Part shown: piece after piece, positions 3,917 to 23,641 of the stretch | Numbering within the stretch: the stretch's first letter is position 1 | How the letters are laid out: each line of letters starts with the position of its first letter | From: a virus | IMG/VR virus record: IMGVR_UViG_3300025154_000387 | Coordinates: 1 to 23,641 of that record | DNA length: 23,641 bases | Direction: 5' to 3' (one strand) | Notes under the pieces: generated by a model | Databases searched by the model: none | The model's input: the letters and a program-made list of their open reading frames with translations, nothing else | What the model was told of the DNA's origin: nothing | Translations under genes and position numbers: made by a program

Positions 3917-4579
3917 TTATGCGATCAATTGTTCGCCGTCGATCACACCCACGGCCACGAGCGCTTCGAGCAGTTCGATCATTTTTGCATCGTCGCCAAC
4001 GAGCCAGTTGACGACGGGTCGGGTGGCGTACTTGCCGCCGAAGCCATACAAAAACCCAGTCCCGCCGTGCACATCGGTGCCGAACTTCGCCACCACTGCG
4101 GTATCGATCGTCAGAATCACGTTGCCGTCGTCGTCACCGACTCCGCCAGCACCAGCGTGCACAACAGCGCTTCCGCCCGCTCCACCACCAGCGGCCCCAT
4201 CACTACCCGACAGCGTGAGCGAGTATCCAGCGCCGGACGCGGGAGGGGTGATTCCTATTGCACGGTTGCCGGCGGCCAACAAAAAATCACTCGTAGCGAC
4301 CCAACTGGTTGTGTACGTCAGAAACTGCCCAGCAGTGCCATCGGCAAGCCCGGCCGCCGTAGGAGTCCACTCGGTGCCATCGAACCCGAGCACCTGCCCA
4401 GTGGTCGGCGCGGTAGCACTCACTGGTCTCCCGCGAAGACCGGACACCACCAGTGATAAGCGATCAGTCCCGACCGTGATCGCCATGTCGACGAAGTCGA
4501 GGCCCTTTTTGAACAGGACCTCAGTGCCGTTCTGGTAGATCTTGCGGATGCCGCCGACGATTCCGTCTAATGCTGTCAC
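3917..4579 (-). CDS. Tail fibre-like protein
   Basis: 220 residues from a GTG (4579-4577) overlapping the previous TGA, with AAGGGGA upstream. The mature sequence begins MTALDGIVGGIRKIYQNGTE. Residues about 62-95 contain the phrase GQVLGFDGTEWTPTA, a motif widespread in phage and prophage tail fibres, followed by a related unit (GQFLTYTTSWV). A Gly/Ala/Ser-rich linker covers about 115-150, and a globular C-terminus follows. The gene is separated from the next one by 18 bp, one of the few true gaps in the fibre block. A trimeric fibre shaft is likely; receptor specificity cannot be told. Confidence 0.7.
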   Translation of the reverse strand: MTALDGIVGGIRKIYQNGTEVLFKKGLDFVDMAITVGTDRLSLVVSGLRGRPVSATAPTTGQVLGFDGTEWTPTAAGLADGTAGQFLTYTTSWVATSDFLLAAGNRAIGITPPASGAGYSLTLSGSDGAAGGGAGGSAVVHAGAGGVGDDDGNVILTIDTAVVAKFGTDVHGGTGFLYGFGGKYATRPVVNWLVGDDAKMIELLEALVAVGVIDGEQLIA

Positions 4580-13313: not shown

Positions 13314-14777
13314 TCACGCCACGACGCCGGTGGCCGGATTGACGAACCCCATGGTGATGTCGAAGCCGGCGGGATACGCCAGCGGCACGATGCGAAGAGC
13401 CCCGGTCACAACCGAGTTCTGCGCGAGCAGGTTGTCGGTTTGACCGACGGCGAACGACTGCGCCGATACGCTGTCACCCACCGCGTTGCGCACCTCGGCC
13501 TCGACTTCCTTGTTGATGTCCTTGGCCTCGGGCGTGGTGATGTAGCCCGTCGACGGAGACACGAAGATGTTCTTGCGGCACCGAGACAACAGCCGACTTC
13601 CACACGCTGCGGCCGCGCGGTTCGTAACTGCGACGTACTGCCAGAGGTAGTAATCGCTGCCGATATTGGCGAGCACCCGCGGGGTGGTGACGTAGGCACC
13701 CTTGCGCCCCTTGAGCGATGTCAGCGTCTCGAAGCCAAGAGCGTCGAGACCAGGATCGAGGGACTCATCGTGTAGCCCAGCCTTGCGGCCGGCTGCGTTC
13801 TTGATCTTCACGTCGCCACCGAGGTTGCCGAGGTCCACCTGGCCGAGGTCGGTCTTCCACGGCTTGGCGAGCTTCAGCGCGCGAGCGGTGGAGATCCAGC
13901 CGGCGGGTCGACGGTACTTGCGAGCGCCGACTGCCGAACTCGAAAACTCACAGTAACCGGCGGACACGGCAATCCGCTTGCTCGTGACCCCAGAGAAGTC
14001 CGCGGCCAACGATGCGATCCACGTGGCTTCGGACTCGCCGACAGCCGGGCCTCTTGCGTTGAGTCGTGCCGCCTTGCGGTCGCCAGCGGCCCAGAGAGAT
14101 TCGAGCCACGTGTCGAAGCTCCCCACCTCGGAGCCGCCCATCGGGGTCGCGAAGGCGGCAAAGTCCCAGTCGTAGCCCATCTCCGCGATCGCGGTCCGCG
14201 CGTCAGAGAAGTCGCTGGCGTTCTCTTGCGGTCCAGTTGTGCGGGTGAACCAGTAGTCGCCGGCGACGAGCGTGCCGGCGGCCAGATCGAACTTCACGTT
14301 GCCGGTTGGGAATGTGATGTGATTGTCAGTGCCGAGCTTCGTTGTGGCCGACATCGTGCGGCCGCCGTCAAGGCTGTGCTGGTACGTGATGCCATCGACC
14401 CCGATCGTCCCGCCGGCGATGACCTTCACGTACGGCTCGTATTCGTCGTACGGCTCAACAGCGGCGTCCGCGGTCGGAACGCTGGTGCCATCGACGTTGG
14501 TCGAGTCGATTGCGCCGTATGCACCCACCGACGTGGTGTCAGTGCGCATGAACACACACGCCTTGGCAGGGCGACCTATTGTTGCGCAGCCCAGTTCGAC
14601 GCCGGCGCCGTAGCCGAAGTTGGTTTCGATGTCTGCCGGGCGGGCAAACGCCACCGGTTGCAGAAGCGGGCCTTTGGACGCAGGCCCAGCGACGACGGCG
14701 ATGTGTCCGACGAGGTTCGACGGGAGCACGCCCAACGCGCCGTCGAGCAGAGTGATATTGACGTTGGCGATCGGCAT
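13314..14777 (-). CDS. Tail sheath protein (DUF2586-like)
   Basis: 487 residues from an ATG preceded by CGGAGG. The N-terminus (MPIANVNITLLDGALGVLPS) and the GHIAVVAGPASKGP segment that follows are typical of Mu-related sheaths. The middle domain holds inserted beta modules (about 90-190). The C-terminal half contains LDALGFETLTSLKGRKGAYVTTPRVL, a hallmark of the DUF2586/sheath family, with SDYYLWQYVAVTNRA, then a helix and final strand that would weave adjacent subunits together. The protein forms the contractile outer tube. Length agrees with the family. This gene makes the particle a myovirus. Confidence 0.86.
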   Translation of the reverse strand: MPIANVNITLLDGALGVLPSNLVGHIAVVAGPASKGPLLQPVAFARPADIETNFGYGAGVELGCATIGRPAKACVFMRTDTTSVGAYGAIDSTNVDGTSVPTADAAVEPYDEYEPYVKVIAGGTIGVDGITYQHSLDGGRTMSATTKLGTDNHITFPTGNVKFDLAAGTLVAGDYWFTRTTGPQENASDFSDARTAIAEMGYDWDFAAFATPMGGSEVGSFDTWLESLWAAGDRKAARLNARGPAVGESEATWIASLAADFSGVTSKRIAVSAGYCEFSSSAVGARKYRRPAGWISTARALKLAKPWKTDLGQVDLGNLGGDVKIKNAAGRKAGLHDESLDPGLDALGFETLTSLKGRKGAYVTTPRVLANIGSDYYLWQYVAVTNRAAAACGSRLLSRCRKNIFVSPSTGYITTPEAKDINKEVEAEVRNAVGDSVSAQSFAVGQTDNLLAQNSVVTGALRIVPLAYPAGFDITMGFVNPATGVVA

Positions 14778-15793: not shown

Positions 15794-15840
15794 GGGCTTC
15801 TACGGGGGAAGCCCCCTGCGGACCTTGGCCGGTAGGGGGC
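15794..15840 (-). promoter_or_regulatory. Two overlapping, mutually exclusive hairpins before the connector gene
   Basis: In the 92-bp gap between the capsid and connector genes, GGGCTTC/GAAGCCC (15794-15800 with 15808-15814, 7-nt loop) abuts the connector ATG. A second stem, GCCCCCT/AGGGGGC (15811-15817 with 15834-15840), is extended by an inner ACC/GGT pair. The two share 15811-15814, so only one can form at a time. No U-run follows, so a simple terminator is unlikely; control of connector translation, attenuation, or mRNA processing behind the abundant capsid message is more plausible. The rest of the gap (15841-15885) shows nothing I recognise. Confidence 0.5.
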
Positions 15841-15885
15841 TGAGAGGTGGGGAGACGAGTTGCTACGTCTTGGGTCTGGCTCCTA

Positions 15886-16863
15886 TCAGGCGCCCTTGAT
15901 CTTTCGGAGACCCTGCCAGAAGGCCAAGGCGAAGCCGTACCAGATGTGCGCGCTGTTCTTGAGCTTGCCAGTGTTCTTGAAGAAATCTGAGTCCGTGTCC
16001 CACTGCCGGAGTTCGAGCTCGAGACCCGGAGACCAGCGCGCGCACAGCCACGGAGGCATCTTCTTCACCAGACTGGAGTCTGCGAGGTACCAGTCATCGG
16101 GGTCGGTGAACTCCGGAACGTGGACGGCCTTCAGTCCCGCGATTGGGTTGGTCATGGTGGCCGTGCCGCCACCGGGGACACCGGTGCCGCTTGCAACCGA
16201 CACCTGGATTTGCTTGATCAGCGCGTCCACGATCTCGAACTTTTCTGTCGGCAACAGGATGGTGTCTGGATTGACTCGCAGCTTCTTGCCGTTGACGTCC
16301 TTCACAGCGCGCATTGCGGTCCGCTCTGCGATGATGTTGGCGATTGAGTTGCAGTCCTTCGGCGTCGCCTGGTAGTTGCTGGACGTTCCGAGTCCAGGTT
16401 TCTTAGTGTTCGCCGGGTGCGTCGCCGAAAAGAAGTTCTGACCGTTCCAGATCAGCGTGGATTCGCCGGCCTCGAGCAAGGCAGCAATCGAGTCGGCCCG
16501 GTGGTTCTGCTCGGCGATGTTCGCGGAATTCGCACTGTCGTTCCACTGACGATAGGCAAACACCTTCGTCAACAAGTCGACCAGTCGGGCTTCGTAGCCC
16601 ATGTCGTACTCGACCACCTTGAGGTCGAGCTTGTCCTCGCCCATCGTCTCGACGGCGCTGTCGCCCTCGGTCTCCTTGAACTTCCCACTCATCGCAGACA
16701 GCGGGTACGTCGTTTCGGGGACGTTCACGGGTGTGGAGTCGCCGTAGTCGTCGACCCACCCCGGGGGGACGTCGGCACCCTGCGCGGCGAGATAGCGGTC
16801 GGAGTACTCGACAAGGGCTTCCGCACTGGTCGCTGGCAGCTTGTCTGATTCGTAAAGGCTCAT
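15886..16863 (-). CDS. Major capsid protein (Mu gpT-like)
   Basis: 325 residues from an ATG with AGAAGGGA upstream. After a helical start (MSLYESDKLPATSAEALVEY), the protein has the family pattern: GKFKETEGDSAVETMGEDK, RQWNDSANSANIAEQNHRADS, the WNGQNFFSATHPANTK phrase that is typical of gpT-type head proteins, and VNPDTILLPTEKFEIV. It ends with the ARWSPGLELELRQWDTDSDFF segment. An HK97-like fold is expected. The protein assembles on the scaffold encoded two genes upstream and is processed in the prohead. Length is close to that of Mu gpT. It is followed by a structured intergenic gap. Confidence 0.88.
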   Translation of the reverse strand: MSLYESDKLPATSAEALVEYSDRYLAAQGADVPPGWVDDYGDSTPVNVPETTYPLSAMSGKFKETEGDSAVETMGEDKLDLKVVEYDMGYEARLVDLLTKVFAYRQWNDSANSANIAEQNHRADSIAALLEAGESTLIWNGQNFFSATHPANTKKPGLGTSSNYQATPKDCNSIANIIAERTAMRAVKDVNGKKLRVNPDTILLPTEKFEIVDALIKQIQVSVASGTGVPGGGTATMTNPIAGLKAVHVPEFTDPDDWYLADSSLVKKMPPWLCARWSPGLELELRQWDTDSDFFKNTGKLKNSAHIWYGFALAFWQGLRKIKGA

Positions 16864-18035: not shown

Positions 18036-18713
18036 TCAGCTCCTGCCCGCCTGGGCCTCACGCCGAGCCTTGAGCTCGGCGAACTTCTCGGGGGTGCACC
18101 CAGTGTCTCTGCAAATCTTGAGCTCGCGCTCGGTCAGGCCCGCGACCCCGGTCCCGCCGCCAGCAAGCGACCCGACCGCGGTGACGTCGCCGGCCAGATT
18201 CGGCACCTCGGCCGGGAACGACCTGGCAATCCGCCGCGCCGTTTCGATTGGCGTTTTGGGATCCTCGACGAGGGCTCGCAGTTCCTTGCTGACGATGCGC
18301 GATTCAGCGAGCAGCTTTGCGCGCTCTTCAGCCACAGCCGCGGCGCGTTTTGTAGCCGCCTCTGCGCGTCGCTCGCTTTCGATCGTGTCGAGCAGCTTGA
18401 GCACGCGAGCATCGGCTGCAGCCGCAGCGGGCTCGGTCGGCTCGGCCATCTCCGCTGGGGCATCGAGAGTCCCCCCGCCGAGGAAGCTCTGCCCCACCTT
18501 GATCGCATTCTCGCACGCAGCGATCATCGCGGTGGTGGCAGCGATCGCCTCGTCGGCCGTGCCTCCGTCACACGCGGTCGCGGCGTCGGTGCACACGGTC
18601 GCGCAGTCTGCTGCGGCAGTGGAGACCTCCGCAGCCGTCGCCCGTCCGGAGCTATTGGACTCGCCCTCGCCGGCGGGCACGTCTTCGGCCGCTTGACGCT
18701 TCGTGTTCTTCAT
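18036..18713 (-). CDS. Nested scaffold protein from internal start
   Basis: An in-frame ATG at 18713-18711 (Met330 of the protease) is preceded by GAAGGA with an 8-base spacer, a far better site than chance would require. The product would be 225 residues, MKNTKRQAAEDVPAGE onward, matching the scaffold half alone. This copies the lambda gpC/gpNu3 and Mu gpI/gpZ arrangement, where excess scaffold is made from an internal start while the full protein supplies the protease. The Met falls exactly at the boundary between protease and scaffold domains, after a polar linker (305-329). Protein evidence is lacking. Confidence 0.72.
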   Translation of the reverse strand: MKNTKRQAAEDVPAGEGESNSSGRATAAEVSTAAADCATVCTDAATACDGGTADEAIAATTAMIAACENAIKVGQSFLGGGTLDAPAEMAEPTEPAAAAADARVLKLLDTIESERRAEAATKRAAAVAEERAKLLAESRIVSKELRALVEDPKTPIETARRIARSFPAEVPNLAGDVTAVGSLAGGGTGVAGLTERELKICRDTGCTPEKFAELKARREAQAGRS

Positions 18714-19700
18714 CGCTGATGTCCTTCGCGCTTTCGCGCCGCTGAGCCGCCCTCGCATCCCCGAGAGCTCCGATTCCTGTGCCTTTGCGCTCATGGTCTC
18801 GATCACTCCGCTGATCGACATGACTCCGTCGATAAGCTTCTTCTCCAATGCCGCGGCCGCGCCGAATGTCGCTCCGTTGAGCGCGCGCACCAGCAACGCA
18901 TCCACGCCGCGCAGCGACCCAATGGCCTCGTAAAAGCGCGTCGCAGCCTCCGTTACTCGCACACGCTCTCGCTCGAGCGCGACGTCGACAACGGGGTCGA
19001 ATGGGTTTCCCGCGTCCTTGCCTGGAGGATCACGCACGAGCGTGACGGCGTTGCCTTCCTGCTCGAGCGCCCCTCGCATGTCGGCGAACATCGTGTAGCA
19101 GCCGATCGAACCCACCTCCGCGGATGTCGGCGCGAAGATCCCTGCGTCGCTCACACCAGCTGCGAGCCAGTATGCGGCGCTACATGCGAGCTCGTCGACG
19201 TAGACGCCGATCGGCTTCTGCTCCGCATCTCGAACTGCGACGATCGACCGAATGCACTCTTCGAGCCCGGCCAGATCTCCGCCGGGTGAGTCGACTCGCA
19301 GGACGACGGCCCCAACCTCAGTGTCTTCGATCGCGCTTGTCACACGCTCTGCGATCGAGTCGTATCCGTCGATCCACCCGCAAAAGTAGTCCGCCCGCTG
19401 AGATAGCGGACCGATCACGTCGACGATGGCGATCTGCGATCGAGCCTTCTTTGTTGCCGCGGCACCACGTTCTGATCGGCGTCCAGACACCGGATGGTGG
19501 GCAATGTCGTGCGGACCCGACTCGATCGAAAACGTCCGCCCTATCGCCGTCGAGGCGAGCGCCATCGTCTGACCAGTGCGATGGTGCAGTAGCGTCCGCG
19601 CATCGAGCACGTAGGTCGTGCGATCGAGCGAAGGTGCGCGCGGCCGGGAGGTCGAAGCCACGTCGCGCCCTCGCGACATCATGCGACCTATCGCCTTCAC
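18036..19700 (-). CDS. Prohead protease of the S49 (SppA) family fused to scaffold domain
   Basis: 554 residues from a GTG in a GTGA overlap with the portal stop, with AGAAGGAAG upstream. Residues about 85-300 are an S49 peptidase: VVLRVDSPGG (132-141) supplies the oxyanion region, Ser174 in ACSAAYW is the likely nucleophile and Lys228 in PPGKDAGNPF the general base, as in lambda gpC. Residues 330-554 form a helical, Ala/Glu-rich scaffold ending with LTERELKICRDTGCTPEKF, a phrase common at the ends of such proteins. The full-length protein cleaves head proteins; the C-terminal part guides capsid assembly. Six Cys residues cluster in the scaffold half (366, 370, 377, 396, 530, 535), which is odd. 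Confidence 0.87.
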   Translation of the reverse strand: MKAIGRMMSRGRDVASTSRPRAPSLDRTTYVLDARTLLHHRTGQTMALASTAIGRTFSIESGPHDIAHHPVSGRRSERGAAATKKARSQIAIVDVIGPLSQRADYFCGWIDGYDSIAERVTSAIEDTEVGAVVLRVDSPGGDLAGLEECIRSIVAVRDAEQKPIGVYVDELACSAAYWLAAGVSDAGIFAPTSAEVGSIGCYTMFADMRGALEQEGNAVTLVRDPPGKDAGNPFDPVVDVALERERVRVTEAATRFYEAIGSLRGVDALLVRALNGATFGAAAALEKKLIDGVMSISGVIETMSAKAQESELSGMRGRLSGAKARRTSAMKNTKRQAAEDVPAGEGESNSSGRATAAEVSTAAADCATVCTDAATACDGGTADEAIAATTAMIAACENAIKVGQSFLGGGTLDAPAEMAEPTEPAAAAADARVLKLLDTIESERRAEAATKRAAAVAEERAKLLAESRIVSKELRALVEDPKTPIETARRIARSFPAEVPNLAGDVTAVGSLAGGGTGVAGLTERELKICRDTGCTPEKFAELKARREAQAGRS

Positions 19701-21247
19701 GCTGCTTCCTTCTGCGATTGTTCGGTCGGAGCCGCGGTCGGCTTACCGATCGGTCGCCACGCGACCTTCCAAACAACATCGCCGTTTTCGTCACGCTCAA
19801 AATCGCGCACGCGCTCGATCCCGCACAGACGACACCGGTTGACGGCGCCGTGCTCGCAGCGGTCAACGTTTTCCGCGGTCATCTTGTCCGCGAGCTGCTG
19901 GGCCGCGTCGTCTGTCGGAGGCTCATCAGGGATACCGTCGCCGTCCACGTCCGTTGTGGTACCGTCGGCCGTGGCTGCCATCGGCTCGCCTATCGTCACC
20001 GTCGGCACGCTCTGCGCAACAAGCAGCGATGCGATGTCTACGTCTCGACCGTATGGGGCGAGGGAGGTGCGCATCGCCGTGATCGCCGTCGCGAGCTGTA
20101 GCATCGCGTTTGCTTCCGCCAAACGATCCTTCGGTGGCGTGACATCCCATAGCACCGTCGCACGCGACGTGAGCGCATCGACCCCCCAGCGCGCCACGAC
20201 CCATGGCGGAATCGCTTGGGTGTTGAGCGTGTGAGCGAGCGAATCGGCGATCGCTTTGATGATGTCCGCGCGAATCGACTTGTGGATGTCGGCGTTCGCG
20301 AACCCTGTGCCGCCCGTCGTCGTGACGAGCTGGCCAGCGATCGCAAGAATGATCTCTTCGTTCGACGTCGTGATCGTCGCGCCGAACGCTTCGTAACCAC
20401 GCCCGTTGCTCTCGAGCAGCTTCACGTCGTAGCCGGGCTTCATCCCGAACACGGTGTTGACTCCCCAAGCCATCACCTTCTGGAACCAGGAGTCCGCCTG
20501 TTCGTCGGTCGCTGCAGAGGGGCTGTATGCAACGCGCGCGGGGTTCGCCAGCTTTGACTCCCAGTTGCTTCGGTACGACTTCGCGTGCGTCTTCGGAATC
20601 CACGCCTCGCCCAGCGCGTACACAATGCCGTGCCTCCACGGGGCAACACGGCCGCCAGCGACGTGCAGGACGAAACGGCCATCACCTGGCGTGATGCGAA
20701 GATCGCCCGCCTTCGTTTGGTAGTACCACTGGTTCTCATCCCAGCGGTACCGCAAACCCTCCGGCTCCTGGCGCACGAGGACCGGGTAGTCGCGTGCGCG
20801 CACTGGCACGAGCTCGCCCAGCGCTACGCCGAGGCCACGGCCATCAGCGGCCATCAGAGCGAGCTCCGTGCTCGGAAACATCTGATCGAACACGCTCACG
20901 GTGCCGTTGCCGGTGAGCTCGGCGACCTGCGCGTCATCGCCGGAGAATTGCCGAGGTAGACGCACCAGGCCGTCAGTGCACGTGCTCATTAGGCCTGCCA
21001 CGACGCCGTCTGCCTGCATCGCACTCCACAGCTTTGCCAGCTGGCGGAGATTCCCGTTGTCTGCTTGCGTGCGCGCGGTCTCGAGGTCCGCCAGGTACCA
21101 GCGCGTCTGCGTCCGTGCTTGGCGCGATAGCTGCGCGCCGGCCGCAGCTCTGATTCGCAATGCTTCTTCGTCGTCCTTCGGATCGGACGGCTTTTCATAC
21201 GCGCTCACACCGAGCAGCGCAGAGAGCACGTCACCGAGGATCGCCAT
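19697..21247 (-). CDS. Portal protein (DUF935-like, Mu gp29 type) with C-terminal zinc-knuckle-like motif
   Basis: 516 residues. The ATG at 21247-21245 is the only usual start codon after an in-frame stop, yet it lacks a ribosome binding site. The core has the family pattern: AGLMSTCTDGLVRLPRQF (about 84-101), WRHGIVYALGEAWIPK (204-219), and AFGATITTSNEEIILAIAGQLVTT (287-310), followed by helical segments for the stem and crown. The C-terminal 90 residues add DVDGDGIPDEP (433-443), which matches calcium-binding DxDGDG loops, and Cys464/His466/Cys472/Cys475 in CEHGAVNRCRLCG, a possible zinc site. The portal forms the ring through which DNA enters. The extension may lie on the inside of the head. 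Confidence 0.82.
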   Translation of the reverse strand: MAILGDVLSALLGVSAYEKPSDPKDDEEALRIRAAAGAQLSRQARTQTRWYLADLETARTQADNGNLRQLAKLWSAMQADGVVAGLMSTCTDGLVRLPRQFSGDDAQVAELTGNGTVSVFDQMFPSTELALMAADGRGLGVALGELVPVRARDYPVLVRQEPEGLRYRWDENQWYYQTKAGDLRITPGDGRFVLHVAGGRVAPWRHGIVYALGEAWIPKTHAKSYRSNWESKLANPARVAYSPSAATDEQADSWFQKVMAWGVNTVFGMKPGYDVKLLESNGRGYEAFGATITTSNEEIILAIAGQLVTTTGGTGFANADIHKSIRADIIKAIADSLAHTLNTQAIPPWVVARWGVDALTSRATVLWDVTPPKDRLAEANAMLQLATAITAMRTSLAPYGRDVDIASLLVAQSVPTVTIGEPMAATADGTTTDVDGDGIPDEPPTDDAAQQLADKMTAENVDRCEHGAVNRCRLCGIERVRDFERDENGDVVWKVAWRPIGKPTAAPTEQSQKEAA

Positions 21248-21336
21248 GCGGTCAACGCAACCACACGCGCCGGTTACATGCAGTTACCAACTGCAAATCG
21301 GCCCTTGGTAACCGAGTGTAACCCGAGATTTGAAGC
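21248..21336. promoter_or_regulatory. Structured gap between large terminase and portal: four-box GTTAC dyad
   Basis: This 89-bp gap holds GTTAC at 21273-21277 and 21283-21287, then the inverse GTAAC at 21308-21312 and 21318-21322. The boxes within each pair are 10 bp apart, one helical turn, and all four share one symmetry centre. The arms 21272-21288 and 21307-21323 match at 14 of 17 positions. A hairpin TGCAGTT-ACC-AACTGCA (21279-21295) and a pairing CGGTTAC/GTAACCG (21271-21277 with 21308-21314) also exist. The region is more A/T-rich than its surroundings and precedes a portal start with no ribosome binding site. An operator, a packaging-related site or a structured leader are the candidates. 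Confidence 0.6.
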
Positions 21337-23043
21337 TCATCGACGGAACCCACCAAACGGATCGATCGCCCCAGAAAACGGATCGAGCACCGGTCTCACG
21401 TCGCCTCGGTCGGTCGGCCGCTTGACCTCCGACGCCGACGATCCTTCCGACGACGAGCTCTCCCACGGCTTCGGATCCCACACGGCAAGGCACATGGCAT
21501 CGGCGCGGTCCGGCGAGCGCTTGATCTTTTTTCGAAGCTCTTTCTTGCTCGTGACCTTCAATCGCCCTTGCGGCCCCTCGATCCACTCCGGCGCGTGCAG
21601 CTCTGCCGCGAGCCTCGAGTCCTCGGGTATCGCTCCACCTTCGCCGCGATCCTCCACTGCACGCAACCAGTGAGCCGCGTTGCCCCAAAGCGCATCGCGC
21701 ATCAGATCCCAAATGTCCGCCTGCCTCACAGCACGATCGGACGCGCGGATCGGGAACACCTCGAACGGCTCTGCGCCGTCATCGAACCTGCTGAGGTACG
21801 CTCGCAACGTGCTGAGCACCTCGGCGCCGATCGGTCCAGAGCGATCGAGCACGACGCGAGGACGTTCCTTCGGCGTCTTGTGCTCTCGGACGATGTTGAG
21901 CAGATGCACCAGGTGCGCGTCCGCAGACAGGCCACGGAACGCCACGAGTTCGATCACGCGCAAACCTCGTCGCGGCGCGAATACGCTCTCGTCGCCGTCG
22001 ACACCCTCGCCGGCAGGGTCGAGTCCGATCGTGAGAACACCTTCGCACGACGCGTCGGCCCACCGCTGCTCCGCAAGCCCGATCGTGTGCAGCGACACAA
22101 CCTTACCCTGTTCTCGCCGAACGAACTCGCCTCTGACGCGCACAGCGTACAGCGGCGAATCCTCGCCCCACTCGCGCCGTTTCTCGTCGACCCAGTCACG
22201 CGTTGCGAGCCCTGGGACAACGTTGCGACCTTCAATAACGTTCGGCGAATCCTCGCTCGACACCTGGATGCAATGCACTCCCTTGGGGTTGTCCTCCGTC
22301 TGCTTCAGCTTGTGGAACGCGTCGAAGAAGAACCCCTCCGATCGTGTCGGGTTCGAGGTCATCAGCACGCGCGCTCCGCCAGCGCGATTGCCTTCGATCG
22401 CCTCGTTGATGTCGTCGCCGATGCCGCTCGCCTCGTCGAGGACGTAGAGCAGATTGCGCCCGGAGATGCCCGCGACAGCTTCTGCTTCCCTCGCGGTGAA
22501 GCCGACGATTTCGCGGAAGTCAGCCGACTTGAGCCCCGATCGCGCAAGCTCGCGGAGCTCGCCGCCGATGGGCTTGATCGCGCGGCGGTGCAGCATGCGC
22601 AGCTCACGCCACAGAATCTGGTCGACCTGACGCGCGGTCACGCTCGACATCACGACGCGGGCCTCGTCGTGCGTGCAGAAGAACCACAACGCCACAACAG
22701 CGTCGGTCACGGACTTGCCGACTTTGTGACCCGACGCGACCGCTACGCGCATGTGGTCGCGCACCGCCAGGAGGATCTGAACCTGCTGGACCGTGAGCCT
22801 GATCCCGAGCACCTCGATCGCGAAGGCCTCCGGGTCCAGCCGATACCGTTCGCTCGGCCAGTGCTCGGACTCCGACAAATTCAGCGCCGATCGAATCTCG
22901 TCGCGCTCGTCCTCGTCGCGCGTGGTCTCGTATCGCAGCTCGAGGTCGCCGTCGATCGCCGTCGACAGCCCGCCTGACATCGTGCGCGCCCGCGATGACG
23001 GCGACCGCCTCGACTGGACCTCACGTGCGATCGAGGTCGTCAC
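21337..23043 (-). CDS. terL: Terminase large subunit
   Basis: 568 residues from a GTG (23043-23041) that overlaps the small terminase stop as GTGA and has AAGGAG eight bases upstream. The ATPase domain carries a Walker A, ASGHKVGKS (about 103-111), and a Walker B, NLLYVLDEAS (about 197-206), with a DEARVVMSS strand between. MTSNPTRSEGFFF is the usual coupling region. The nuclease domain begins near LTIGLDPAGEGVDGDES, with further acidic residues in VVLDRSG and SPDRADAMCLAVWD. The enzyme cuts concatemeric DNA and drives it into the prohead. The last 60 residues are Ser/Asp-rich and probably flexible. Confidence 0.93.
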   Translation of the reverse strand: MTTSIAREVQSRRSPSSRARTMSGGLSTAIDGDLELRYETTRDEDERDEIRSALNLSESEHWPSERYRLDPEAFAIEVLGIRLTVQQVQILLAVRDHMRVAVASGHKVGKSVTDAVVALWFFCTHDEARVVMSSVTARQVDQILWRELRMLHRRAIKPIGGELRELARSGLKSADFREIVGFTAREAEAVAGISGRNLLYVLDEASGIGDDINEAIEGNRAGGARVLMTSNPTRSEGFFFDAFHKLKQTEDNPKGVHCIQVSSEDSPNVIEGRNVVPGLATRDWVDEKRREWGEDSPLYAVRVRGEFVRREQGKVVSLHTIGLAEQRWADASCEGVLTIGLDPAGEGVDGDESVFAPRRGLRVIELVAFRGLSADAHLVHLLNIVREHKTPKERPRVVLDRSGPIGAEVLSTLRAYLSRFDDGAEPFEVFPIRASDRAVRQADIWDLMRDALWGNAAHWLRAVEDRGEGGAIPEDSRLAAELHAPEWIEGPQGRLKVTSKKELRKKIKRSPDRADAMCLAVWDPKPWESSSSEGSSASEVKRPTDRGDVRPVLDPFSGAIDPFGGFRR

Positions 23044-23594
23044 CCGGCGAGCTCCTTGAGCGCTCGTGACACCGCCACCGCTGCGGCTGGGAACGGCTGC
23101 AGGGCGTCCACGATTGCGTCCTGCAGACGGCGCCACGCAGGCGTTCGCAGGATGCGCGCTTCCGAAATCTCCTGTCCCTCACCGGTGAGCTTCGACAGCA
23201 ACTCAATGCATCGCGTCTCGGTCGCCTCGAGGCGCAGCCGCGTCTGCGGAGGCATAGCTGCGTCGCTCAGCGCCGCGCCCCGGATCTCGTCCAGCCGCTG
23301 AAGCTGTGCGCGGAGACGCCCTTCTGCGTCCAGCTTGGTCTCCGGGTCTGCGCTGCGCTGGGCCTGCGCCGCACCGAGGGCCATCGACTTCACCTCAACG
23401 TCCCACGCCGGAGCCGGCACTCCGAACAATGCCTCGATGGTCTTTCGCCTCGCGGTGGACGGTCGCTTGGTTGACCCAAGCCACTGGGTCACAGCAGCTC
23501 TCGACACGCCGAGCTGAGCCGCGATCGCAGCGTGGTCAAGACCAGTAGCGGCCAGTAGCCTCGCACCCTCGTTTTTTTCGGCTATTCGGGCCAT
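23040..23594 (-). CDS. terS: Terminase small subunit (helix-turn-helix DNA-binding)
   Basis: 184 residues from an ATG with AAAGGT upstream. Residues 10-40 form a helix-turn-helix (LDHAAIAAQLGVSRAAVTQWL), and a short KRPSTARRKTIEALFG segment follows, giving a domain like those of Cro/XRE-type regulators or small terminases. A coiled-coil region (about 83-145) and a C-terminal helix would form the oligomerisation ring and the contact with TerL. The gene directly precedes terL with GTGA coupling. Small terminases recognise the pac or cos site. A regulator cannot be fully excluded, but order, length and the coiled coil favour terminase. Confidence 0.78.
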   Translation of the reverse strand: MARIAEKNEGARLLAATGLDHAAIAAQLGVSRAAVTQWLGSTKRPSTARRKTIEALFGVPAPAWDVEVKSMALGAAQAQRSADPETKLDAEGRLRAQLQRLDEIRGAALSDAAMPPQTRLRLEATETRCIELLSKLTGEGQEISEARILRTPAWRRLQDAIVDALQPFPAAAVAVSRALKELAG

Positions 23595-23641
23595 CGGGTT
23601 ACCTTTCCCCTTGAAAATACCCGCCGAATCTCTCTCTGAGG
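23595..23641 (-). promoter_or_regulatory. Start of upstream region of the structural operon
   Basis: The last 47 bp lie upstream of the small terminase. They contain an A/T-rich run (TTGAAAATA on the plus strand), the AAAGGT ribosome binding site and one GGGTTACC sequence at 23596-23603 that carries the same GTTAC core as the dyad before the portal gene. No convincing -35/-10 pair is visible in this short piece. Confidence 0.35.

Follow-up and report, generated by a model that had tools for sequence, protein, structure and literature searches.

A set of short, symmetrically arranged DNA words lies in the gap between the large terminase and portal genes of an uncultured phage, which raises the question of what reads these words and what they control. 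The phage fragment comes from IMG/VR, and the whole stretch of DNA analyzed (23,641 bp) is called the window hereafter. The genes listed are all on the minus strand, and the following are needed here.

23040..23594, minus strand: gene for a 184-amino-acid protein with an N-terminal Xre/Cro-type helix-turn-helix (HTH), directly upstream of terL
21337..23136, minus strand: large terminase gene terL (599 amino acids; PHROG 2, E = 3.1e-27)
19697..21247, minus strand: portal gene (516 amino acids; PHROG 113, E = 5.6e-19)
18036..19700, minus strand: S49/SppA-like head maturation protease
15886..16863, minus strand: major head protein
13314..14777, minus strand: tail sheath

The portal protein of the window is distant kin of the DUF935-type portals of Meiothermus and Myxococcus phages, with 25 to 30% identity. 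A search of GTDB genomes for relatives gave one distant match only. Within the GenBank phage collection nothing matched the HTH protein of the relative L025 (see below), and for terL the identity was at most 31% among the matches listed, so that the group has no near isolate in the collection searched. The terL-portal gap measures 89 bp (21248 to 21336), of which the element occupies 21273 to 21322. Nearly all other gene junctions had been described as overlapped in the first-pass annotation; most neighbors do overlap or nearly so, but there is a second gap of about 92 bp (15794 to 15885), unusually long, that precedes the major head protein gene.

Four phased boxes form an exact dyad

On the plus strand, GTTAC is read at 21273-21277 and 21283-21287 and GTAAC at 21308-21312 and 21318-21322, giving GTTAC-N5-GTTAC-N20-GTAAC-N5-GTAAC. 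The period of 10 bp, the spacer of 20 bp and the dyad center at 21297.5 that had been proposed at first pass were recovered exactly from the sequence. In the direction of transcription, with positions counted from the portal start, the parts are as follows.

21318..21322, minus strand: box 1, GTTAC, -75 to -71
21308..21312, minus strand: box 2, GTTAC, extended GTTACCAA, -65 to -61
21288..21307, no strand: central spacer of 20 bp (30 bp in L024 and 21 bp in L025, two relatives described below)
21283..21287, minus strand: box 3, GTAAC, extended TTGGTAAC, -40 to -36
21273..21277, minus strand: box 4, GTAAC, -30 to -26
21248..21272, minus strand: leader before the portal gene, without a Shine-Dalgarno sequence, CGGCGCGTGTGGTTGCGTTGACCGC, with GTGG at -17 to -14

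As single words, GTTAC is not enriched in the window (14 copies versus 13.6 expected). The four-box arrangement was found in none of 100 dinucleotide shuffles, and perfect four-box dyads of any box word are expected 0.03 times per Markov copy of the window. Equally well-phased clusters, which would speak for a chance origin, were also looked for along the window, and the arrangement in the terL-portal gap was the only one.

The nearest relatives keep the geometry of the boxes

Searches of IMG/VR with terL and portal yielded about 150 relative loci, the nearest of those fetched being L024 (terL 68% identical) and L025 (terL 67%). The junction of L024 reads GTTAC-N5-GTGAC-N30-GTAAC-N5-GTAAC, with 10 bp more at the center than the window, and that of L025 reads GAGAC-N5-GAGAC-N21-GTCTC-N5-GTCTC, with an extra GAGAC 20 bp upstream. 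Phased boxes are therefore kept in both close relatives, and what is conserved across the three phages is the geometry and not a fixed sequence; the first-pass search pattern held as to its four-box layout, whereas its exact GTTAC words and N20 spacing differ. Because L024 and L025 remain alignable in this gap around the boxes (TCTATGTTTTCCGTGAGACAG versus CCTACGTTTACCGAGTTACAC), the box words must have changed in place, in four of four boxes and in both orientations. Such a concerted change points to one phage protein reading all four boxes, and the co-variation expected of one reader was thus observed in L025.

A word-blind scan of all terL-portal junctions at several periods returned the window, L024 and L025 as the AT-containing high scorers of period 10, and in 1.6 Mb of fetched DNA there were almost no perfect dyads with AT-containing boxes besides those of these three phages. 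The GAGAC four-box form occurs once in IMG/VR, which is L025 itself. That the full form is limited to three phages, and that similar GTTAC-rich clusters exist in unrelated phages, would suit a chance pattern or unconstrained inherited sequence. Nevertheless, the boxes of the window and L024 are identical at 19 of 20 positions against 38 of 64 (59%) elsewhere, and all four boxes of L025 changed in concert where the null expectation is the 0.03 given above, which makes a chance origin very improbable. We regard the element as real, conserved and apparently sequence specific, and there is good support for the earlier proposal of a DNA element that a protein dimer or oligomer would bind cooperatively, since the phased boxes recur and those of L025 changed together.

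The element is confined to a small group of phages

Among 102 unique gaps, GWKAC-N5-GWKAC pairs were present only in the window, L024, L025, L044 and L071, the background rate of such pairs being 0.024 per kb. The gap of L071 carries GTTAC-N5-GTTAC-N5-GTTGC at -52/-42/-32 from the portal start and that of L044 carries GTGAC-N5-GTGAC at -56/-46, in both cases without inverted partners. These five phages cluster on a quick terL tree (3 changes, against a shuffled mean of 5.0, with 0 of 500 shuffles as low as 3), a tree compatible with one origin of the pairs or with several. Across the family as a whole, no excess of inverted or direct repeats upstream of the portal gene was found, which confines the element to a small group and refutes the idea that every relative has some dyad before its portal gene.

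An exact scan of IMG/VR for the four-box GTTAC arrangement gave 22 matches, mostly GTTAC-rich clusters, in phages absent from the terL and portal searches; on both counts, they are no evidence for a common system. L013, L015 and L016 have GTTACCGAAT-like repeats with a 10-bp period and inverted copies, apparently independent phased GTTACC clusters. In a larger clade (72 rows), the gap is mostly filled by a gene for a stand-alone Cro-like HTH protein of about 75 amino acids, which runs across the terL stop and leaves about 40 bp to the portal gene (L031, L033, L045, L057, L130 and several dozen more). Its HTH domain is akin to the N terminus of the protein encoded upstream of terL, as if duplicated.

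A DNA site is favored over an RNA hairpin

The same stretch could act as RNA, a terL-portal hairpin serving as a processing site or in translational control. The RNA fold noted at first pass is real, at -26.8 kcal/mol on the transcribed strand, and the window, L024 and L025 share a stem/internal-loop/stem hairpin (z = -4.0, -6.0 and -3.5, respectively) whose pairing is preserved by the changes from GTTAC to GAGAC. Since all three close phages fold similarly, covariation alone cannot settle whether DNA or RNA is read. The smaller hairpin of 7 bp with a 3-nt loop can be read in the window (TGCAGTTACCAACTGCA) but has, by inspection, no counterpart in L024 or L025. Moreover, a stem needs no direct identity between boxes, yet the six direct pairs agree at 29 of 30 positions, and L071 and L044 have direct boxes without the hairpin (z = 0.09 and -0.93, respectively). 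Of the central spacers (20, 21 and 30 bp), the first two are nearly equal and the third is longer by about one helical turn, the extra 10 bp of L024 matching helical phasing. The direct box identity, the boxes without a hairpin and the spacer lengths together favor DNA, and a role as RNA is improbable. Neither an Rfam match nor an intrinsic terminator was found for the element. As judged from these patterns, the element is very probably a DNA site bound by one oligomeric protein.

Most portal starts lack Shine-Dalgarno sequences, and in the closest phages the downstream boxes keep their distance from them

The absence of a Shine-Dalgarno sequence at the portal start of the window was confirmed. 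Likewise, an SD-like tetramer was found at the portal start of 4 of 92 relatives, versus 12 of 13 for the sheath gene. A weak motif runs through the family at portal starts, GTGGC at -17 to -13 and C at -1, which the GTGG of the window fits. This avoidance of SD sequences, together with the GTGGC/C motif, suggests that portal transcripts may be leaderless family-wide.

The downstream pair of boxes lies at -40/-30 from the portal start in the window, at -38/-28 in L024 and at -39/-29 in L025, and the upstream pair varies more (-75/-65, -83/-73 and -75/-65, respectively). The lack of SD sequences at portal starts (88 of 92) and the fixed distance of the boxes from the start favor an operator that overlies a putative portal promoter. 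We infer a putative promoter that would have boxes 3 and 4 across its -35 region and a transcript beginning at or near the portal start codon. A recognizable sigma-70 promoter was not found at the element, so an activator-dependent or non-consensus host promoter must be assumed.

An operator before the portal gene is the best reading

Three roles had been left open by the first-pass annotation: operator, packaging or processing site, and translational control. The fixed position of the boxes relative to a portal start without an SD sequence favors the first, and the RNA or translational role was weakened. Our best reading, with a probability of roughly 0.6, is that the element is an operator, a double-stranded DNA site for one oligomeric phage protein that would control the portal gene. 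The support is at the level of sequence: the boxes, their spacing, conservation and concerted change, their fixed place relative to the portal gene, and the SD-less start. Taken separately, control of portal transcription by the element appears somewhat better than an even bet.

In the mechanism that we propose, each 5-bp box would be contacted by one DNA-binding domain of a single phage protein that forms oligomers. A pair of boxes spaced by one helical turn would form a half-site, and two inverted half-sites would form the whole site. The downstream half-site (-40/-30) would cover the -35 region of the presumed portal promoter and the upstream half-site (-75/-65) would add cooperative binding. 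In this way the protein would activate or silence the portal/head operon separately from the terminase genes. The likeliest reader would be the HTH protein whose gene directly precedes terL, a probable small terminase.

The HTH protein upstream of terL as candidate reader

The designation of the 184-amino-acid HTH protein as a probable small terminase comes from its gene position and from its layout and type of fold; no database family identifies it as such. Its homologue in L025 matches Pfam HTH_3 at 3.2e-8, and the protein upstream of terL is recovered at about 1e-8 by a profile made from the short HTH proteins that are encoded on their own in the gap. The AlphaFold model (mean pLDDT 87, pTM 0.43) consists of an HTH head followed by long helices, and Foldseek matched the HTH part only, to lambda-repressor-like domains, with E > 0.1 and high probability.

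In L025, GAGAC ranks first of all 512 5-mers in two places, the junction (99 nt, 5 copies) and the 198 nt before the HTH gene (6 copies). The two densest GAGAC/GTCTC clusters of that contig, which was read almost whole (232 bases were not fetched), are the junction and the roughly 200 bp before the HTH gene. The window includes 47 bp upstream of its HTH gene, in which one GGTAACC is present.

23598..23602, plus strand: single GTTAC (GGTAACC on the minus strand), just before the HTH gene start; the window ends 39 bp further on

No box cluster was found upstream of the HTH gene in L044 or L071, and the L024 contig does not contain that gene. Across relatives, 5-mers common to the upstream regions of the HTH and portal genes are convincing in L025 only. 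In L193, whose HTH protein belongs to the same group, the terL-portal gap has no boxes. The HTH protein is the leading candidate as reader of the boxes and its link to them is circumstantial; we put forward the small terminase as the box-binding protein tentatively, at somewhat less than even odds.

In small terminases of solved structure that form HTH rings, adjacent HTHs are spaced about one turn of B-DNA apart and one domain covers 3 to 5 bp, a spacing that 5-bp boxes every 10 bp fit (PMC4737164). In vitro, several small terminases have little specificity for sequence (PMC7672466, PMC4737164), and how these proteins find DNA is still poorly understood. A bolder, rather unlikely possibility is that the small terminase also serves as a transcription switch with sequence specificity, in which its HTH ring reads phased 5-bp boxes upstream of both its own gene and the portal operon. 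If so, the amount of a packaging protein would be tied to head-gene expression, and its specificity would drift with all boxes at once. Two HTH proteins (57% identical), two box words and one frame make a natural specificity-swap pair. Even with a separate regulator as reader, the element would be a well-defined late-gene operator.

Packaging sites and dedicated regulators as alternatives

The boxes could instead be a pac or cosB-like recognition site for the small terminase, with no role in transcription. The element adjoins the terminase genes, the spacing of its 5-bp boxes by one turn suits an HTH ring (PMC4737164), and the word clusters of L025 upstream of the HTH gene are in the usual place of pac and cos sites. 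However, a packaging site would not require the constant spacing seen between the downstream pair and the portal start codon, and the 42- to 50-kb contigs of relatives tend to have an end a few kb upstream of the portal gene, before terS, which places their ends away from the terL-portal junction. Weighing both sides, a packaging site without a transcriptional role is quite unlikely. The ends of these near-complete contigs (L032, L043, L060 and L080 among them) lie about 2.5 to 4.5 kb upstream of the portal gene, before or at terS, a clustering that hints at a defined genome end there. A cos site at the junction itself is not favored, the contigs of L025, L044 and L071 running through it and other ends lying upstream of terS.

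By analogy, the element would act like known phage operators and like small-terminase repeat sites. Systems of the SPP1/SF6 type offer a parallel in their small terminase, an oligomeric ring whose N-terminal HTHs are about one turn of DNA from each other, and in the direct repeats that surround its gene (PMC4737164). The boxes described here differ in being short and in exact phase, in forming two pairs inverted to each other, and in preceding the portal gene. The SF6 domain is little specific for its repeats, whereas the box words here change in concert. The cos phage PaP3 has a sequence-specific HTH small terminase, modeled with two HTHs on a site of about 20 bp (PMC7672466), but that site is a cohesive-end site and the element here is not at a visible genome end.

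Returning to the operator reading, its reader might be a dedicated regulator, such as a CII-like activator or a late repressor, in place of the small terminase. As a sub-case, this possibility shares the operator evidence. The sites of lambda CII are TTGC-N6-TTGC, direct repeats 10 bp apart that straddle the -35 region and are bound by a tetrameric HTH activator. The pair at -40/-30, with its short direct repeats at a 10-bp period over the presumed -35 region, resembles them, although the words differ and a second, inverted pair lies upstream. Most relatives also have a small stand-alone HTH gene exactly in the terL-portal gap. Conversely, the sole CI/Cro-like pair of L025 has TGACAG/CTGTCA as its intergenic repeats and no GAGAC, for which reason it was rejected as reader, and no other candidate is tied to the boxes, the window being incomplete. 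A dedicated regulator is thus doubtful, though a serious contender.

The stoperators of Cluster A mycobacteriophages are single repressor sites of about 13 bp, present in many copies along the genome. Like them, the element is a phage site in an intergenic gap of structural genes; unlike them, it is one composite site and not many single ones. A stoperator was rejected by copy number, there being one composite site in the window and few pairs in the L025, L044 and L071 contigs.

Two further regions next to HTH genes were observed. The non-coding stretch of L025 upstream of its HTH gene (4097-4352) is a candidate packaging or regulatory region, with a strong hairpin, GTCTCCCATAC-GTA-GTATGGGAGAC, and three repeats of TCGCCCGAGACTCGCC that are almost identical. 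In L195 (5906-5939) and L196, the portal gene and an HTH-terS-like gene point away from each other across a 66-bp gap, which contains the perfect inverted repeat GCGTTGTC-N18-GACAACGC.
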